This document shows positions 18,900-63,312 of a stretch of DNA of 64,000 bases, in pieces. The notes beneath the pieces are model-generated. The model saw nothing but the letters and a program-made list of their open reading frames with translations. It was not told where the DNA came from and made no database searches. The stretch covers positions 1 through 64,000 of the forward strand of contig JACRIK010000035.1 in the NCBI GenBank assembly GCA_016235865.1. The letters run 5' to 3'. This DNA is from Planctomycetota bacterium. GTDB lineage: Bacteria > Planctomycetota > MHYJ01 > JACQXL01. Positions within the stretch are counted from its first letter, which is position 1. Each line of letters begins with the position of its first letter. The position numbers and the translations under genes are program-made.

Positions 18900-19060
18900 A
18901 TTAACCACAGATACACACGGATAAACACCGATAATTATATCCAGAGATAATTGACGTGTCGGCAGACAAAAGATAACATACCCCTTTAAAGAAATATAAA
19001 ACACGAATATTATTCGTGTGATTCGCCGTATTCGTGAGATTCGTGTTAGAATTTGGGAAT
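18900..19060. repeat. Intergenic repeats upstream of guaAb
   Basis: Contains a TTAACCACAGATACACACGG unit (also read into the carB 3' end near 56710-56735), a CACGAATA/TATTCGTG inverted repeat at about 19002-19018, and four ATTCG boxes at 9-bp steps (19012, 19021, 19030, 19039). No gene is likely here. Confidence 0.5.
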
Positions 19061-19065
19061 TTATT

Positions 19066-20019
19066 ATGTTTAAACCAGACAAGTTTATCACCGAAAAGAT
19101 AGCCGAGCTGCAGAATAAAATCAAGGGCACGGCCGTGATTGGCATCTCGGGCGGAGTGGATTCCACCACAGCGGCCATCATCGTCCATAAGGCCATCGGC
19201 AAGCAACTCCTGTGCGTACTGGTTGATACCGGCTATATGCGCAAGAACGAGGTCAAGTTCAATGAGCAGATGCTCAAAGACCTGGGACTGAATGTCATGG
19301 TGGCCGACGCCTCGGACCGGTTCTACGCCGGCCTCAAGGACGTGGCTGACCCGGAGCAGAAGCGCAAGGTCATCGGCGAACTCTTTATCCGGGTATTCGA
19401 GGAAATCGCCCTGAAACAAGGCGCCAAATACTTTATCCAGGGCACGATTGCCCCGGACTGGATAGAATCCGGCGGCGGATTGAGGGACAATATCAAATCG
19501 CACCACAATGTCGGCGGACTGCCAGCCAAGATTGCCTTTGAGATAGTCGAACCCCTGCGCGATTTATACAAGGACGAGGTGCGTCTGGTCGGTCAGGCAC
19601 TGGAACTGCCCACCGCGGTCTATGAACGCCAGCCCTTCCCGGGCCCGGGACTGGCCGTTCGGATTATCGGACCGACTGATGCCGCCAAGGCCGCGATTGT
19701 CCGCGAGGCCTGCGCCATCGTGGAAGAGGAACTTGAGGCCGCGGCTAAGACCAAACTCATGGTCATTCCCTGGCAGTATTTCGCGGTGCTGTTGCCGGTC
19801 AAGGCAGTCGGCGTGCACGGCGATGTCCGGGCCTATGGCTATGTGGTAGTGGTCCGGGCGGTCGAGAGCATGGACGGCATGAGCGCCACATACTCCAAGA
19901 TACCGCATCCGGTCCTGGAGAAAATCTCGGTGCGCATTACTAATACCTTAAAAGACAGCGTCAGCCGGGTGGTCTTTGATATCACCCATAAACCACCGGG
20001 GACTATTGAATACGAGTAG
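19066..20019 (+). CDS. guaAb: GMP synthase, ATP-pyrophosphatase subunit (split type)
   Basis: Adenylates XMP for conversion to GMP using ammonia from the partner amidotransferase. The 317 residues have the PP-loop VIGISGGVDSTTAAI (about 24-38), the DWIESGGGLRDNIKSHHNVGG block and the dimerisation domain with ERQPFPGPGLAVRIIG and a C-terminal PPGTIEYE. There is no amidotransferase domain in this chain; that function is the next gene. This is the archaeal arrangement; most bacteria use one fused GuaA. The start at MFKPDKF is chosen because the upstream in-frame extension is repeat-derived. Confidence 0.92.
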   Translation: MFKPDKFITEKIAELQNKIKGTAVIGISGGVDSTTAAIIVHKAIGKQLLCVLVDTGYMRKNEVKFNEQMLKDLGLNVMVADASDRFYAGLKDVADPEQKRKVIGELFIRVFEEIALKQGAKYFIQGTIAPDWIESGGGLRDNIKSHHNVGGLPAKIAFEIVEPLRDLYKDEVRLVGQALELPTAVYERQPFPGPGLAVRIIGPTDAAKAAIVREACAIVEEELEAAAKTKLMVIPWQYFAVLLPVKAVGVHGDVRAYGYVVVVRAVESMDGMSATYSKIPHPVLEKISVRITNTLKDSVSRVVFDITHKPPGTIEYE

Positions 20020-20026
20020 AAAAGAG

Positions 20027-20152
20027 GTTACACGTTCGCTTCGCTCAATGCAAGCAAACGGTTACAAGACGTTACAAAAACGTTACAAGAGGTTACTTAA
20101 GACTGTGCAACTTCCTGTAACATCATGTAACCCTACTGTAACTTCATGTAAC
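20027..20152. repeat. Mirror-symmetric array of GTTAC boxes
   Basis: GTTAC occurs at 20061, 20071, 20082 and 20092 (a further copy is at 20027), and its complement GTAAC at 20117, 20127, 20138 and 20148. The steps are 10-11-10 bp on both sides of a 25-bp step. Sequence between boxes is not conserved. The array fills the gap between the two GMP synthase genes. Confidence 0.8.
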
Positions 20153-20162
20153 ATTATATATC

Positions 20163-20732
20163 ATGCCTAAGATTTATGTAGTTGACAACGGCGGGCAATG
20201 GACCCATCGCATCTGGCGGGTCTTGCGCGAACTGGACTGCGACACCAAAATCATCCTCAATACCACCCTGCTGAAGGATATTGATGCCGATGGATTAGTC
20301 CTGAGCGGCGGCGCGGCCCGAATTGCCTGGGAATCGCTCAAATTAGGCGAATGCACTACTTACTTCAAGGAATTCAAGGGCCCTATCTTAGGCGTCTGCG
20401 TCGGACACCAGTTAATGGCTTCATATTATGGCGGCAATGCCGGCGCTTCTGAAATGCCTGAATTCGGACTCTCCAAGATACGCATCTTAGAACCAGATGA
20501 CCTGTTCAAAGGACTGCCTAAGGAATTCAATGTCTGGCAGTCGCACAACGACGAGGTCAAGTCAGCGCCGGGATTCACGGTCCTGGCTGAATCGGACAAC
20601 TGCAAAATCCAGGCCATCAAGCACCACACCAAACCGCACTACGGCGTCCAATTCCATCCCGAAGTGAACAACACGGAAAATGGCGAAGCTATATACCAAA
20701 ACTTCGTTAATATCGTGGCCGGGATGCGATAA
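20163..20732 (+). CDS. guaAa: GMP synthase, glutamine amidotransferase subunit (split type)
   Basis: Class I glutamine amidotransferase of 189 residues that supplies ammonia to the ATP-pyrophosphatase subunit. The nucleophile elbow is GVCVGHQLMASYYGG (Cys about residue 79), with the His-Glu pair in GVQFHPEVNNTENG (about 163-176). The opening IYVVDNGGQWTHRIWR is typical of archaeal GuaAa. It follows guaAb after the GTTAC box array. Its last codons (NFVNIVAG) are duplicated, degraded, at 22063-22214 beyond the ATPase gene. Confidence 0.92.
   Translation: MPKIYVVDNGGQWTHRIWRVLRELDCDTKIILNTTLLKDIDADGLVLSGGAARIAWESLKLGECTTYFKEFKGPILGVCVGHQLMASYYGGNAGASEMPEFGLSKIRILEPDDLFKGLPKEFNVWQSHNDEVKSAPGFTVLAESDNCKIQAIKHHTKPHYGVQFHPEVNNTENGEAIYQNFVNIVAGMR
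20700..20724 (+). repeat. Direct repeat at the guaAa 3' end (copy 1)
   Basis: 25 bp from AACTTCGT to GTGGCCGGGA match 22081-22090 plus 22192-22206 with one mismatch, once the 97-99 bp element in copy 2 is removed. Similarity extends upstream to GGCGAAG at equal spacing. May be an attachment-site-like junction for the segment between the copies. Confidence 0.6.
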
Positions 20733-28546: not shown

Positions 28547-28690
28547 AGTAAGATAGTAAGTATTCAGTAAACAGTGGTCAGTAGACAGTTAATATAAAAG
28601 GATAATACAAATTACGGGAAGAATATCAATAAAAAGAGGAACACGAATAAGACGAACGGGAACGAATTACACGAATAAGAAATAATATTA

Positions 28691-28759
28691 ACCACAAAGA
28701 GCACTAAGGTCACAAAGAATTCCCCATATTCACTTTGTGGTCTTTGTGTGCTTTGTGGT
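28691..28759. repeat. 27-bp inverted repeat (ACCACAAAG type)
   Basis: Left arm 28691-28717 begins ACCACAAAGAGCAC; right arm 28733-28759 ends TGCTTTGTGGT. The arms are imperfect complements. Together with GTAGACAGT-like and CACGAATAAG-like repeats at 28560-28680, it occupies the 283-bp gap upstream of the aminotransferase gene. Confidence 0.6.
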
Positions 28760-28766
28760 GAACGGA

Positions 28767-55224: not shown

Positions 55225-55962
55225 AACAAAGGGGGTCAGGGGGTTGTGGGCATTTCTAAGGGGTAATTCTTACCGCAACTTATTAAACTTCATAGAGTTA
55301 GGTTATCTTACCCTTATGTCTGTATTTCTTCCCCGGAGTCCCGGATTTCTTTCCGGGAGTCCCGGATTTCTTTCCGGTAACTACGGATTTCTTCCCTGTA
55401 ACTACAGATTTCGTCCCGGTAGCTACGGATTTCTTCCCCGTAACTACAGATTTCTTCCCCGTAACTACGGATTTCTTCCCTGTAACTACAGATTTCTTCC
55501 CTGTAACTACGGATTTCTTCTCCGTAACTACGGATTTCTTCCCTGTAACTACGGATTTCTTCCCCGATGCATCGGAATCTTTCCGCCCTAAGACGGAATC
55601 TTTCCACCCTAAGACGGAAACCTTCAGCCCCTGGGGATAAATCACTTGTTTATGGCCTGTAGTCAATCGGCTCTGGCTTATAGTCAACTGTCTATGACTT
55701 ATAGCCAATCATCCCTGACTCAGGTATAATCATCCTTGAACCAGGTACAGTCGTCCCTGACTCAGGTACAGTCGTCTCTGACCCAAGGGGATGTCCTTAT
55801 AACCCGTGGCGATGCCGCGAAGCTCATAGAAAGGTGAATAAGGAAGGGTAAAAGGCTGTCTTGGGAAAACGCAGGCCTGGAAGTCAGATATTTAAGGAGT
55901 TACAGAGGCAGGTGGGTGTCACCGGCCCTTGAATTCCCGCTTGCCCGCTTGGAACTTAGGCG
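55225..55962. other. 738-bp gene-free stretch holding the 21-bp array
   Basis: Contains the tandem array (55324-55785), then about 180 bp without recognisable features. Long open frames on both strands over the array (heptapeptide repeats) follow from a 21-bp unit lacking stops; no start signal or export signal supports a real protein. Confidence 0.5.
55324..55785. repeat. 21-bp tandem array (22 units)
   Basis: Twenty-two units of exactly 21 bp that drift in sequence along the array. Early units share ATTTCTTCCC plus a dyad: CCGTA-AC-TACGG (units 7, 10), CTGTA-AC-TACAG (units 4, 8), CCGGGA-G-TCCCGG (unit 2), CCGATGCATCGG (unit 12). Late units (16-22) use TAGTCA...TGACT-type dyads. Paired changes in the two arms suggest the dyad is kept. 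Confidence 0.9.
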
Positions 55963-56671: not shown

Positions 56672-56685
56672 ACCTACCGGTAGGT
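56672..56685. repeat. ACCTACCGGTAGGT palindrome at the carB stop
   Basis: A perfect 14-bp palindrome that supplies the carB stop codon (TAG on the minus strand). It ends the repeat-derived C-terminal extension of CarB. Confidence 0.65.
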
Positions 56686-59600
56686 AGATTCGCTATGTGC
56701 GGTCCCTTCGGGTTCGTGTGTATCTGTGTGCATCTGTGGTTTCAAATTCCGGTGTTTTGAATTACCAAGATATTCATTAAGCGAGAAGACCTGCATCTGG
56801 CCTTTGCGGACTAGTTCAATGGCATTGGCCGCGGCCCGGGCCGCGGTGATAGTGGTGATAAACGGTATGCCCAGTTCCACAGCCAGACGCCGCATCCGAT
56901 AGCCGTCCCGTTTTGGGCCGCTACCCTCGGTCGGCGTATTAATAATAAGTTTGACCTTACCTTCCCGCATCAGCGAGAGCGCATTGGGCGTCTGCCGTTC
57001 ACTGATGCGCCAGACCGTGGTCACCGGAACTTTATTATTAACTAAATACTGCGCCGTGCCTTTGGTGGCAATAATCGTCAGTCCGTTTTCCGTTAGTTTG
57101 CGGGCAATCGGGGCTATCTTTTCCTTGTCCGAATCGCAGACCGTGATATAGACCTGGCCTTCGGTCGGCAGAGAATTCCCGGCCGCCAGCAACGCCTTGT
57201 AATAGGCCAGGCCGAATGATTTGTCTATGCCCATGACCTCGCCGGTCGATTTCATCTCCGGCCCCAGAATGGCATCCACACCGGGCAGTTTCATAAACGG
57301 GAATACCGGCGCCTTGACCGAGACATAATCCACCTGCACCATTTCAATCAGTCCGAGTTGCTTGAGCGTGGCTCCGAGCATCAGTTTCGTGGCAATCTTA
57401 GCCATGGGCACGCCGATGGTCTTGGAGACATAAGGCACGGTCCGGCTGGCCCGCGGGTTGGCCTCAATCATATAAACCTTGTTGTCCTTGACCGCCAACT
57501 GGATGTTAATCAGCCCGATGGTCTTCAATGCCAGCGTCACCTCTCTGGTGATGCGCTTGATTTCGGCAATAATCTCCGGCTTAAGCGTCTGGGTCGGTAT
57601 GACACAGCCGGCATCGCCGGAATGCACCCCGGCTTCTTCAATATGCTCCATAATCGCGCCGATAAAAACATCCGTGCCGTCCGACAGCGCGTCCACGTCT
57701 ATCTCCACGGCATTGGAGATATATTTATCCACCAGCACCGGATGCTTTTTGGATATCCGGGCCGCCGAGGTGATATAGAATTCCAGGTCCTTTTCGTTAT
57801 GGACGATTTCCATGCCCCGCCCGCCCAGGACATAACTGGGCCGGACCAGGACCGGGTAGCCAATCTTGCCGGCCAGTTCGCGCACCTCGTCAAATGAATA
57901 ACCGGTATGCCCTTCGGGCTGGATAACGCCCATCTTGCGCATGAGCGCCTCAAACCTGCGCCGGTCTTCGGCCATGTCTATGGAATCAGCCGGCGTGCCG
58001 AATATCTTGGTCTTAAGGTCTTTTCTCCGGCTCAACTCGGCCTGCAGCGGCATAGCCAGATTAACCGAGGTCTGGCCGCCGAACTGGACCACCACGCCAT
58101 CCGGATTTTCCAGTTCAATGACATTCATGACATCCTCAAAGGTCAGCGGCTCGAAATAGAGCCGGTCTGAGATGTCGTAGTCCGTGGACACGGTCTCGGG
58201 ATTATTATTTATGATGATGGCCTTGATGCCCTGTTCGCGCAGGGCCATGACGCCGTGCACACAGCAGTAATCAAATTCAATGCCCTGGCCGATGCGGATG
58301 GGCCCGCCGCCCAGGATGAGAACCTTGGTCGGTTGGCCGGTCTGCCGGTCTGCCGGTCTATCGGTTTGACTGGCTGACTGGCTGACTGGCTGACTGGTTA
58401 ACTGGCTTTCGTATGTCGAGTAGAAATACGGTGTCTTGGCCTCAAACTCAGCCGCGCAGGTGTCCACCATCTTATATGAAACGTTTATGCCCAACGCCTG
58501 GCGATGCGCCGTAATCTTCGGCTCGTCCATTCCCAGCACATAACCGATATATTCGTCTGAGAATCCCATCTGTTTCAGGTGATAGAAAAATTCCTTATCC
58601 AGCTTGCCGAAACCACGCAGTTTCAATTCCTGTTCGGCCTTTACTATATTATGAAGCTTATTAATAAAGAAGATGTCCCATTTGGTAATGTCGGCCAGCG
58701 TGGTCGGCTGGTAACCACGGCGCAGTGCCTCGACAATGGCAAAGAGACGCTTGTCAGTCGGCTCAACCAGTTCGCTCAACAGCGTGGACTTGGACCAGGC
58801 CTCGGGCTCAATGGCAATCCGGTCCGTCTCCAGCGACCGCACCGCCTTCATAATGGATTCCTCGACCGTCCGGCCGATGGCCATGACCTCGCCGGTGGAT
58901 TTCATCTGGGTGCCGATGCGCCGGTCCACAGTCCGGAACTTGTCAAACGGCCAGCGCGGGATTTTCATCACTACATAATCCAAAGCCGGCTCAAACGAGG
59001 CAAAGGTCTTGCCGGTAACTGAATTGGGAATCTCATCCAGCGCCAGCCCGACGGCAATCTTGGCCGCCACCCGGGCAATCGGATAGCCGGTGGCCTTGGA
59101 TGCCAGGGCCGAGGAACGCGAGACGCGCGGATTAACCTCTATCACCCGGTATTGTCCGTTGGCCGAATTAAGCGCAAACTGGACATTGCATCCGCCTTCG
59201 ATGCCCAGCGCCCGGATAATCTTCAAGGAAGCATTGCGGAACATCTGGTGGTCGCGATCCGACAGGGTCTGGGACGGCGCTATGACAATACTCTCTCCGG
59301 TATGGACGCCCATCGGGTCCAGGTTTTCCATATTGCAGATGATGATGCAGTTATCGTTCTTGTCGCGCATGACCTCGTATTCATATTCCGCCCAGCCCAG
59401 CACGCATTCCTCAACCAGCACCTGCTTGATACGCGAATAACTCAGGCCCAGGGTAACGATTTCCTCCAGCTGTTCCTTATTCTCGGCAATGCCGCTACCC
59501 GTGCCGCCCAGGGTATAGGCCGCCCGGATAATCACCGGATAGCCGCCCACCTGGTCAATCACGGACAAGACCTCTTCCAGCGTATGGCAGGCCACGCTGC

Positions 59601-60033
59601 GCGGGGTGGGTTCCTTGATATCGTGCATCAACTGGCGGAACAGGTCACGGTCTTCGGAGGCCGCTATGGTTTTGGAAGAACTGCCTAATAATTCCACATT
59701 ATATTTCTTGAGGACGCCTAACTCAGCCAATTCACTGCAGAGATTAAGGGCCGTCTGCCCGCCCATGCCGGACAGGATACCCTGGGGCCGTTCCTTCTCG
59801 ATAATCCGGGTAAGCATCTCGGCCGTCAATGGCTCGACATAGGTTACATCGGCCGTCTCGATATCGGTCTGGATGGTGGCCGGGTTGGAATTTACCAGCA
59901 CCACCTGATAGCCCTCTTCACGGAGCGAGCGGCAGGCCTGGGTGCCGGAGAAATCAAACTCCGCCGCCTGGCCGATAACAATCGGGCCGGAGCCGATTAT
60001 CATTAACTTCTTAAGGTCAGTTCTTTTTGGCAT
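56674..60033 (-). CDS. carB: Carbamoyl-phosphate synthase large subunit
   Basis: Makes carbamoyl phosphate for arginine and pyrimidines. Two homologous halves, each with an ATP-grasp domain: N-half GSGPIVIGQAAEFDFSGTQA, SGMGGQTALNL and EVNPRVSRSSALASKATGYP; C-half GGGPIRIGQGIEFDYC, QFGGQTSVNLA and EANPRASRTVPYVSKTIGVP; then an MGS-like regulatory domain near 950-1070. At 1119 residues it is about 45 too long: some 24 residues (PVSQSASQTDRPADRQ and flanks) come from an 8-bp tandem repeat at the junction of the halves, and about 19 C-terminal residues come from intergenic repeats. Confidence 0.97.
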   Translation of the reverse strand: MPKRTDLKKLMIIGSGPIVIGQAAEFDFSGTQACRSLREEGYQVVLVNSNPATIQTDIETADVTYVEPLTAEMLTRIIEKERPQGILSGMGGQTALNLCSELAELGVLKKYNVELLGSSSKTIAASEDRDLFRQLMHDIKEPTPRSVACHTLEEVLSVIDQVGGYPVIIRAAYTLGGTGSGIAENKEQLEEIVTLGLSYSRIKQVLVEECVLGWAEYEYEVMRDKNDNCIIICNMENLDPMGVHTGESIVIAPSQTLSDRDHQMFRNASLKIIRALGIEGGCNVQFALNSANGQYRVIEVNPRVSRSSALASKATGYPIARVAAKIAVGLALDEIPNSVTGKTFASFEPALDYVVMKIPRWPFDKFRTVDRRIGTQMKSTGEVMAIGRTVEESIMKAVRSLETDRIAIEPEAWSKSTLLSELVEPTDKRLFAIVEALRRGYQPTTLADITKWDIFFINKLHNIVKAEQELKLRGFGKLDKEFFYHLKQMGFSDEYIGYVLGMDEPKITAHRQALGINVSYKMVDTCAAEFEAKTPYFYSTYESQLTSQPVSQSASQTDRPADRQTGQPTKVLILGGGPIRIGQGIEFDYCCVHGVMALREQGIKAIIINNNPETVSTDYDISDRLYFEPLTFEDVMNVIELENPDGVVVQFGGQTSVNLAMPLQAELSRRKDLKTKIFGTPADSIDMAEDRRRFEALMRKMGVIQPEGHTGYSFDEVRELAGKIGYPVLVRPSYVLGGRGMEIVHNEKDLEFYITSAARISKKHPVLVDKYISNAVEIDVDALSDGTDVFIGAIMEHIEEAGVHSGDAGCVIPTQTLKPEIIAEIKRITREVTLALKTIGLINIQLAVKDNKVYMIEANPRASRTVPYVSKTIGVPMAKIATKLMLGATLKQLGLIEMVQVDYVSVKAPVFPFMKLPGVDAILGPEMKSTGEVMGIDKSFGLAYYKALLAAGNSLPTEGQVYITVCDSDKEKIAPIARKLTENGLTIIATKGTAQYLVNNKVPVTTVWRISERQTPNALSLMREGKVKLIINTPTEGSGPKRDGYRMRRLAVELGIPFITTITAARAAANAIELVRKGQMQVFSLNEYLGNSKHRNLKPQMHTDTHEPEGTAHSESTYR
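58329..58408. repeat. 8-bp tandem repeat inside carB
   Basis: Ten 8-bp units in a row (versions of CCGGTCTG grading into ACTGGCTG). It lies exactly at the linker between the two halves of CarB and is read in frame as a Ser/Gln/Thr/Asp-rich segment. Copy number must change by three units to keep frame. Confidence 0.8.
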
Positions 60034-63196: not shown

Positions 63197-63220
63197 ATTG
63201 TTCTCCTTGTTCGCACAAGA

Positions 63221-63312
63221 TTGTCAAGAATTGTCATAAATGGTCAGATATAGTCAAGTATAGTAATTTAACCATACTTGACAATTCTTAGCCACATTTG
63301 ACTATACTTGAC
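63221..63312. repeat. 10-bp-phased GTCA box array with inverted second half
   Basis: GTCA at 63223, 63233, 63243 and 63253 (then GTAA at 63263), followed by the complement TGAC at 63279, 63299 and 63309. All steps on the left are exactly 10 bp; on the right 20 and 10. It fills the gap between the aldolase and the small protein gene and runs into the aldolase C-terminus (LISQV, stop at 63302). Confidence 0.75.

Follow-up and report, generated by a model that had tools for sequence, protein, structure and literature searches.

The GMP synthase intergenic region

The window, by which we mean the whole stretch of 64,000 nucleotides that was analyzed, encodes GMP synthase as two adjacent genes (19066-20732), of which the ATPase part comes first. 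The intergenic gap, from the upstream stop codon ending at 20019 to the downstream ATG at 20163, is taken up by an array of short boxes, GTTAC in the left half and its complement GTAAC in the right half (Table 1). A sequence-only reading had described four plus four boxes in mirrored spacing. The steps it gave, of 10, 11 and 10 bp in GTTAC 20061-20092, of 25 bp between the GTTAC at 20092 and the GTAAC at 20117, and of 10, 11 and 10 bp in GTAAC 20117-20148, are correct, but the true count is five plus five, the two boxes left uncounted being a displaced plus-strand box at 20027 and an innermost variant, GCAAC, at 20107. No gene lies between the halves, which are separated by 10 bp from the box at 20092-20096 to the box at 20107.

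Table 1. Features in and around the GMP synthase intergenic gap (window coordinates)
Feature	Position	Strand	Basis	Remark
GMP synthase ATP-pyrophosphatase subunit gene (upstream)	19066-20019	+	sequence	stop codon 7 bp ahead of box 1
Left half, box 1, GTTAC	20027-20031	+	sequence	shifted outward by 24 extra bases
Widened spacer that contains the dispersed hairpin GCTTYGCTCARTGCAAGC (20038-20055)	20032-20060	+		
Left half, boxes 2-5, GTTAC at 20061, 20071, 20082, 20092	20061-20096	+	sequence	
Right half, innermost box, variant GTTGC (GCAAC on + strand)	20107-20111	-	sequence	
Right half, boxes 1-4, GTAAC on + strand at 20117, 20127, 20138, 20148	20117-20152	-	sequence	
GMP synthase amidotransferase subunit gene, 189 aa (downstream)	20163-20732	+		10 bp beyond last box

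The hairpin in the enlarged spacer has nine copies in the source genome, and five of the nine lie inside GTTAC arrays. Apart from the window copy they are found in contigs C1, C18 (two copies), C21, C26 (two copies), C27 and C30, and the hairpin is usually preceded by ACAC. A search of the gap for promoters and terminators gave nothing above chance, and Rfam matched nothing in the window except a tRNA. The array does not qualify as a 23S rRNA intervening sequence, since it sits between two protein genes.

A dispersed family of inverted arrays

The source genome (G000, 2.67 Mb) was read by pattern searches and in stretches. The triple-box pattern with 10-11-bp steps matched 49 times and the reversed control pattern not once, which rules out chance as the source of the arrays; for box pairs there were 90 matches against 10 for the reversed pattern. 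The search for further arrays that the sequence-only reading had called for thus revealed about 20 inverted GTTAC arrays, every one of them convergent, with GTTAC first and GTAAC second. The step is exactly 10 bp in 137 of 160 cases, and the mirrored 10-11-10 spacing is unique to the window copy; in other copies an 11-bp step is either confined to one side or absent altogether. Most arrays begin 2-10 bp past a stop codon and end shortly before the next start codon. The genes downstream of them, as read from their translations, include ffh, pilT, gpsA, hutU and an amidase and are functionally unrelated. GTTAC arrays are also present in genomes of the same order and in many Omnitrophota contigs.

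The full form encloses a gene for an intervening-sequence protein

At a locus in contig C21 of the source genome (L019), and at one locus each in two genomes of the same order (L157 in G006, L163 in G007), the space between the five-box halves is occupied by an open reading frame of 133-140 aa. The encoded proteins are 23S rRNA intervening-sequence proteins (IVP, PF05635; Pfam E 2e-18 to 1e-19) and also match TIGR02436, "four helix bundle protein". An IVP gene within five-box halves is likewise found in the family genome G002 and at the Omnitrophota loci L062 and L108. The L019 gene occupies 173962-174363 of C21, encodes 133 aa and lies within GTTRC halves of five boxes at 10-bp steps, the first right-hand box containing the IVP stop codon. 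In the protein tree the five GTTAC IVPs form one clade with 100/100 support and a long stem, although its members come from two phyla. A structure model of the IVP (mean pLDDT 67.8, of low confidence) can be taken for four helices and the IVP fold only. The full element encodes only the IVP, in which no recognized catalytic part was found, and the source genome has no RVT_1 match to a reverse transcriptase; a role as helper of a reverse transcriptase was for this reason discarded.

The ends of the window copy match those of the full element L019 of the same genome in unit and period. The window array thus combines the inverted ends, the lack of a gene and the many copies that mark a miniature inverted-repeat element (MITE). 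No target-site duplication was found, the relatives being too distant to fix the exact site of the window copy.

Insertion history and the period of the gene-less arrays

The gap was compared across relatives, as the sequence-only reading had proposed, and the window copy is absent from the same site in all three other genomes of the family. The two GMP synthase genes overlap in G001 and G002 and are separated by a short gap in G003, in each case with no GTTAC boxes. The split amidotransferase is present in all four family genomes (G000-G003; 74-78% identity to the G000 version), and GMP synthase is fused in the order-mates G004-G008. The split is therefore older than the array, and the suggestion that the array marks the junction at which a fused guaA was split is refuted. 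Among the GTTAC arrays, the copy in the window lacks the gene and is specific to its lineage. Another site displays the full series: the full element in G000 and G002, a remnant in G008 consisting of a partial IVP gene between GTTAC boxes, and an empty site in G001 and G003.

Around the GTTAC IVP gene of G002 the boxes follow one another at 9-bp steps. On the premise that a gene-less array belongs to the IVP lineage resident in its genome, 9-bp arrays are predicted in G002 and not in G000, and this was borne out. Among the nine genomes G000-G008, triples with 9-bp steps occur only in G002 (nine) and G003 (five), and triples with 10-11-bp steps only in G000, G006, G007 and G008. Gene-less arrays agree in period with the IVP element resident in the genome (9 bp in G002; 10 bp in G000, G006 and G007), and the 9-bp halves have five boxes where they are complete. 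G003 has 9-bp arrays and no GTTAC IVP was found in its assembly, which is 83% complete.

IVP genes have their own array dialects

Inverted arrays of short units likewise surround other IVP genes, both in the source genome and in its relatives, but with different sequences and periods (7-10 bp), which we call dialects. In a test for inverted 6-mers common to both flanks, with significance assessed against shuffles, 36 of 51 IVP genes had inverted arrays, compared with 1 of 36 neighboring control genes, and a short period was detected at 45 of the 51. Arrays were not detectable at 15 of the 51 by the inverted test or at 6 of the 51 by the periodicity test. Phylum-wide, the arrays were inverted at 18 and periodic at 23 of 27 IVP genes. 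Among IVP genes of cyanobacterial plasmids, inverted arrays were found at five of seven (p < 0.01) and a 7-bp period at all seven. Dialect follows IVP protein similarity (Mantel r = 0.38, 0/2000 permutations), and the correlation holds when pairs from the same chromosomal place are omitted. At three places (L186/L203, L176/L212 and L189/L208) the same gap holds different IVP lineages, with 32-36% identity, in different genomes; judged from these sequences, some gene gaps may act as if they were hot spots for IVP elements.

A probable gene-less copy of a mobile element

We conclude that the window array is very probably (about 0.82) a gene-less, MITE-like copy of a dispersed IVP mobile element. 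It resembles MITEs in being short, gene-less and multicopy and in having inverted ends matched by those of a full element of its own genome. It differs from them in that its full element has no recognized transposase, its ends are arrays of short boxes, and no target duplication was found. Another likeness is to the intervening sequences of 23S rRNA genes that carry an S23p/IVP gene, such as that of Coxiella burnetii, with which the GTTAC element shares the protein family, the short length and the inverted ends (PMC4990558). The Coxiella IVP gene is preceded by tandem heptamers, GACAGAT, and the intervening sequence has been called a selfish element of unknown mobility (PMC4990558). In contrast, the GTTAC element lies between protein genes, has about 20 copies that mostly lack the gene, and has ends composed of five 10-bp units each.

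As a rule, the halves of GTTAC arrays have five boxes. Exact GTTRC boxes number five in 33 of 43 halves and six in none of the 43, and five is also the mode in independently fetched loci. Both of the nearest solved structures, 2gsc and 2rld, contain five chains, and the X. campestris IVP structure (2gsc) is a homopentamer ring (PMC4990558). The box count alone is suggestive. By analogy with these structures, one IVP pentamer might read one half, with one box per subunit, a proposal that we offer tentatively and to which we give slightly less than an even chance. We do not extend the count of exactly five to a law covering every dialect: the upstream unit count of other dialects has its mode at five and a range to eight or nine, and heptamer arrays vary, exceeding five units with up to eight or nine or more. 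The sequence-only reading had suggested a protein that binds repeated boxes along one face of the DNA, from boxes spaced at about one helical turn. A protein that reads repeated boxes is still the best reading; the reasons given for it, phasing and a single face, are not supported. Five boxes are kept whether the step is 10 bp or 9 bp, and in other dialects the step is 7-8 bp, so that with a step that varies and a count that stays at five, helical phasing is rejected.

In the mechanism that we envisage, the IVP would be pentameric here as well and one pentamer would occupy each five-box half, one box to a subunit; the two ends of the element would be drawn to each other, and both gene-bearing and gene-less copies would spread in trans, helped by some enzyme. 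The window copy would be tolerated between the two genes.

The most serious alternative is that the element acts as RNA, the two halves pairing in the transcript to form a hairpin that is bound or cut, with the IVP acting on RNA. The folds of the arrays are strong (z from -2.2 to -8.7), the boxes of the window copy are able to pair (z = -4.0), and RNase III is known to excise the Coxiella intervening sequence (PMC4990558). The spacers, however, do not co-vary, and a stem kept by compensatory change is not supported. As the sequence-only reading had noted, the bases between the boxes are not complementary: opposed spacers match at 0.468 of positions, compared with 0.516 between different elements, and 73 of 5000 shuffles were as low. 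A first test had hinted at active avoidance of spacer pairing, an effect that disappeared in the comparison with out-of-register pairs within one element, from which opposed spacers do not differ. When positions are counted from outside to inside in each half, the variant GTTGC occupies the innermost box in 11 of 33 halves, compared with 10 of 170 for the outer four boxes. From outside to inside, the two halves have their box variants in one and the same order. Equivalent DNA ends would show this, and it fits two DNA ends that are read alike. We regard action at the RNA level as unlikely. It would nevertheless be compatible with a mobile element if the IVP binds RNA, the rivalry being only over the level of action.

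A second alternative is that the boxes are operators through which a host regulator controls the adjacent genes, the IVP gene being one target of many. The arrays lie just ahead of start codons, the boxes resemble repeated binding sites, and related intergenic heptamers have been proposed to be regulatory (PMC4679880). Against this, the neighboring genes are unrelated, and the presence of an array differs at the same gene between close relatives, and on these grounds a regulon is rejected. Every IVP lineage uses a dialect of its own; in relatives, the same gaps are occupied by other dialects; and the window gap has no detected promoter or terminator. The idea that the window array controls the amidotransferase gene is likewise not supported: the same arrays precede unrelated genes, and in relatives the amidotransferase gene occurs with no such array. 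An operator function is on this evidence improbable. Tandem-repeat slippage or other sequence drift with no protein involved can be dismissed almost entirely: there are long heptamer arrays with almost no imperfections, for example that of Pseudanabaena (L298), but the GTTAC spacers are diverse, the halves are always inverted with a count that stops at five, and the arrays track one IVP clade across phyla.

IVP elements and unexplained intergenic repeats

The mobile-element reading of the GTTAC arrays could be extended to IVP genes in general. They would represent a widespread class of tiny mobile elements with no enzyme of their own, in which a pentameric four-helix protein recognizes the ends of its own element by their arrays of short boxes, ideally five in number. 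The boxes would diverge together with the protein into many mutually distinct dialects within one genome, and a large part of the short intergenic repeats of Planctomycetota, Omnitrophota, Cyanobacteria and others, so far without explanation, would be gene-less arrays. We consider this generalization possible, with the odds a little against it. Short-unit arrays between genes, resembling the GTTAC arrays in this respect, are known from several bacteria, and the cyanobacterial STRR sequences are among them. Heptamer arrays of unexplained origin have been described in Xanthomonas (GGGAATC) and Nostoc (GGGGA(C/T)T), and X. campestris, the species of the 2gsc structure, has 70 convergent heptamer-array pairs (PMC4692102). 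The Beggiatoaceae have intergenic TAACTGA arrays, for which it was suggested that a repeat-binding protein might itself be a mobile element (PMC4679880). These papers draw no link with IVP; the link is proposed here and was tested for the cyanobacterial plasmid IVPs only.

IVP/S23 proteins have been described as lacking a known function (PMC4990558, PMC11270868). Avd, the accessory protein of diversity-generating retroelements, is related to IVP (PMC10053308); it has a four-helix fold (4dwl) that is a weak structural match to the IVP model, and its systems differ in that no reverse transcriptase was found in the source genome. In open-access journal papers we found nothing that ties IVP genes to inverted box arrays, dialects or the count of five, and nothing pertinent on GTTAC repeats, Omnitrophota palindromic repeats, or a four-helix-bundle protein with inverted repeats. 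If each IVP reads its own box arrays, then the family gains a job, dozens of natural protein-array pairs become available for studying the evolution of specificity, and a single source may lie behind several intergenic repeat families that were published with no explanation of their origin. It would also be a reason for caution, such arrays being the ends of elements rather than operators.

Other arrays in the window and at CRISPR loci

The window contains further short-unit arrays. An inverted period-8 array at 58325-58408, with CGGTCTGC units and then GACTGGCT, is an in-frame insertion that adds about 28 residues to a carB-like open reading frame of 1119 aa (56674-60033, minus strand); its dialect is of the type of the IVP element L187. 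At 63215-63310 there is a gene-less array of GTCAAGNATA units at 10-bp steps, with about five units per half, in the dialect of the IVP elements L169 and L177 of relatives. More short-unit arrays of the kind seen around IVP genes (CACNGATAA; ATTCGTGNG; ACGAAT; CACAAAG) lie at 18900-19050 and 28640-28760, and the ATTCGTGNG array directly precedes the GMP synthase ATPase gene. At 55360-55560 there are about nine tandem repeats of 21 bp (GTAACTACGGATTTCTTCCCT), and the GTAAC found there is unrelated to the arrays.

Two cyanobacterial plasmids (L298 and L304) each carry an IVP gene, together with its arrays, in the interval from cas6 to cas4. IVP has been listed as an association of CRISPR adaptation (PMC10910872), and this listing may reflect insertions like these two.
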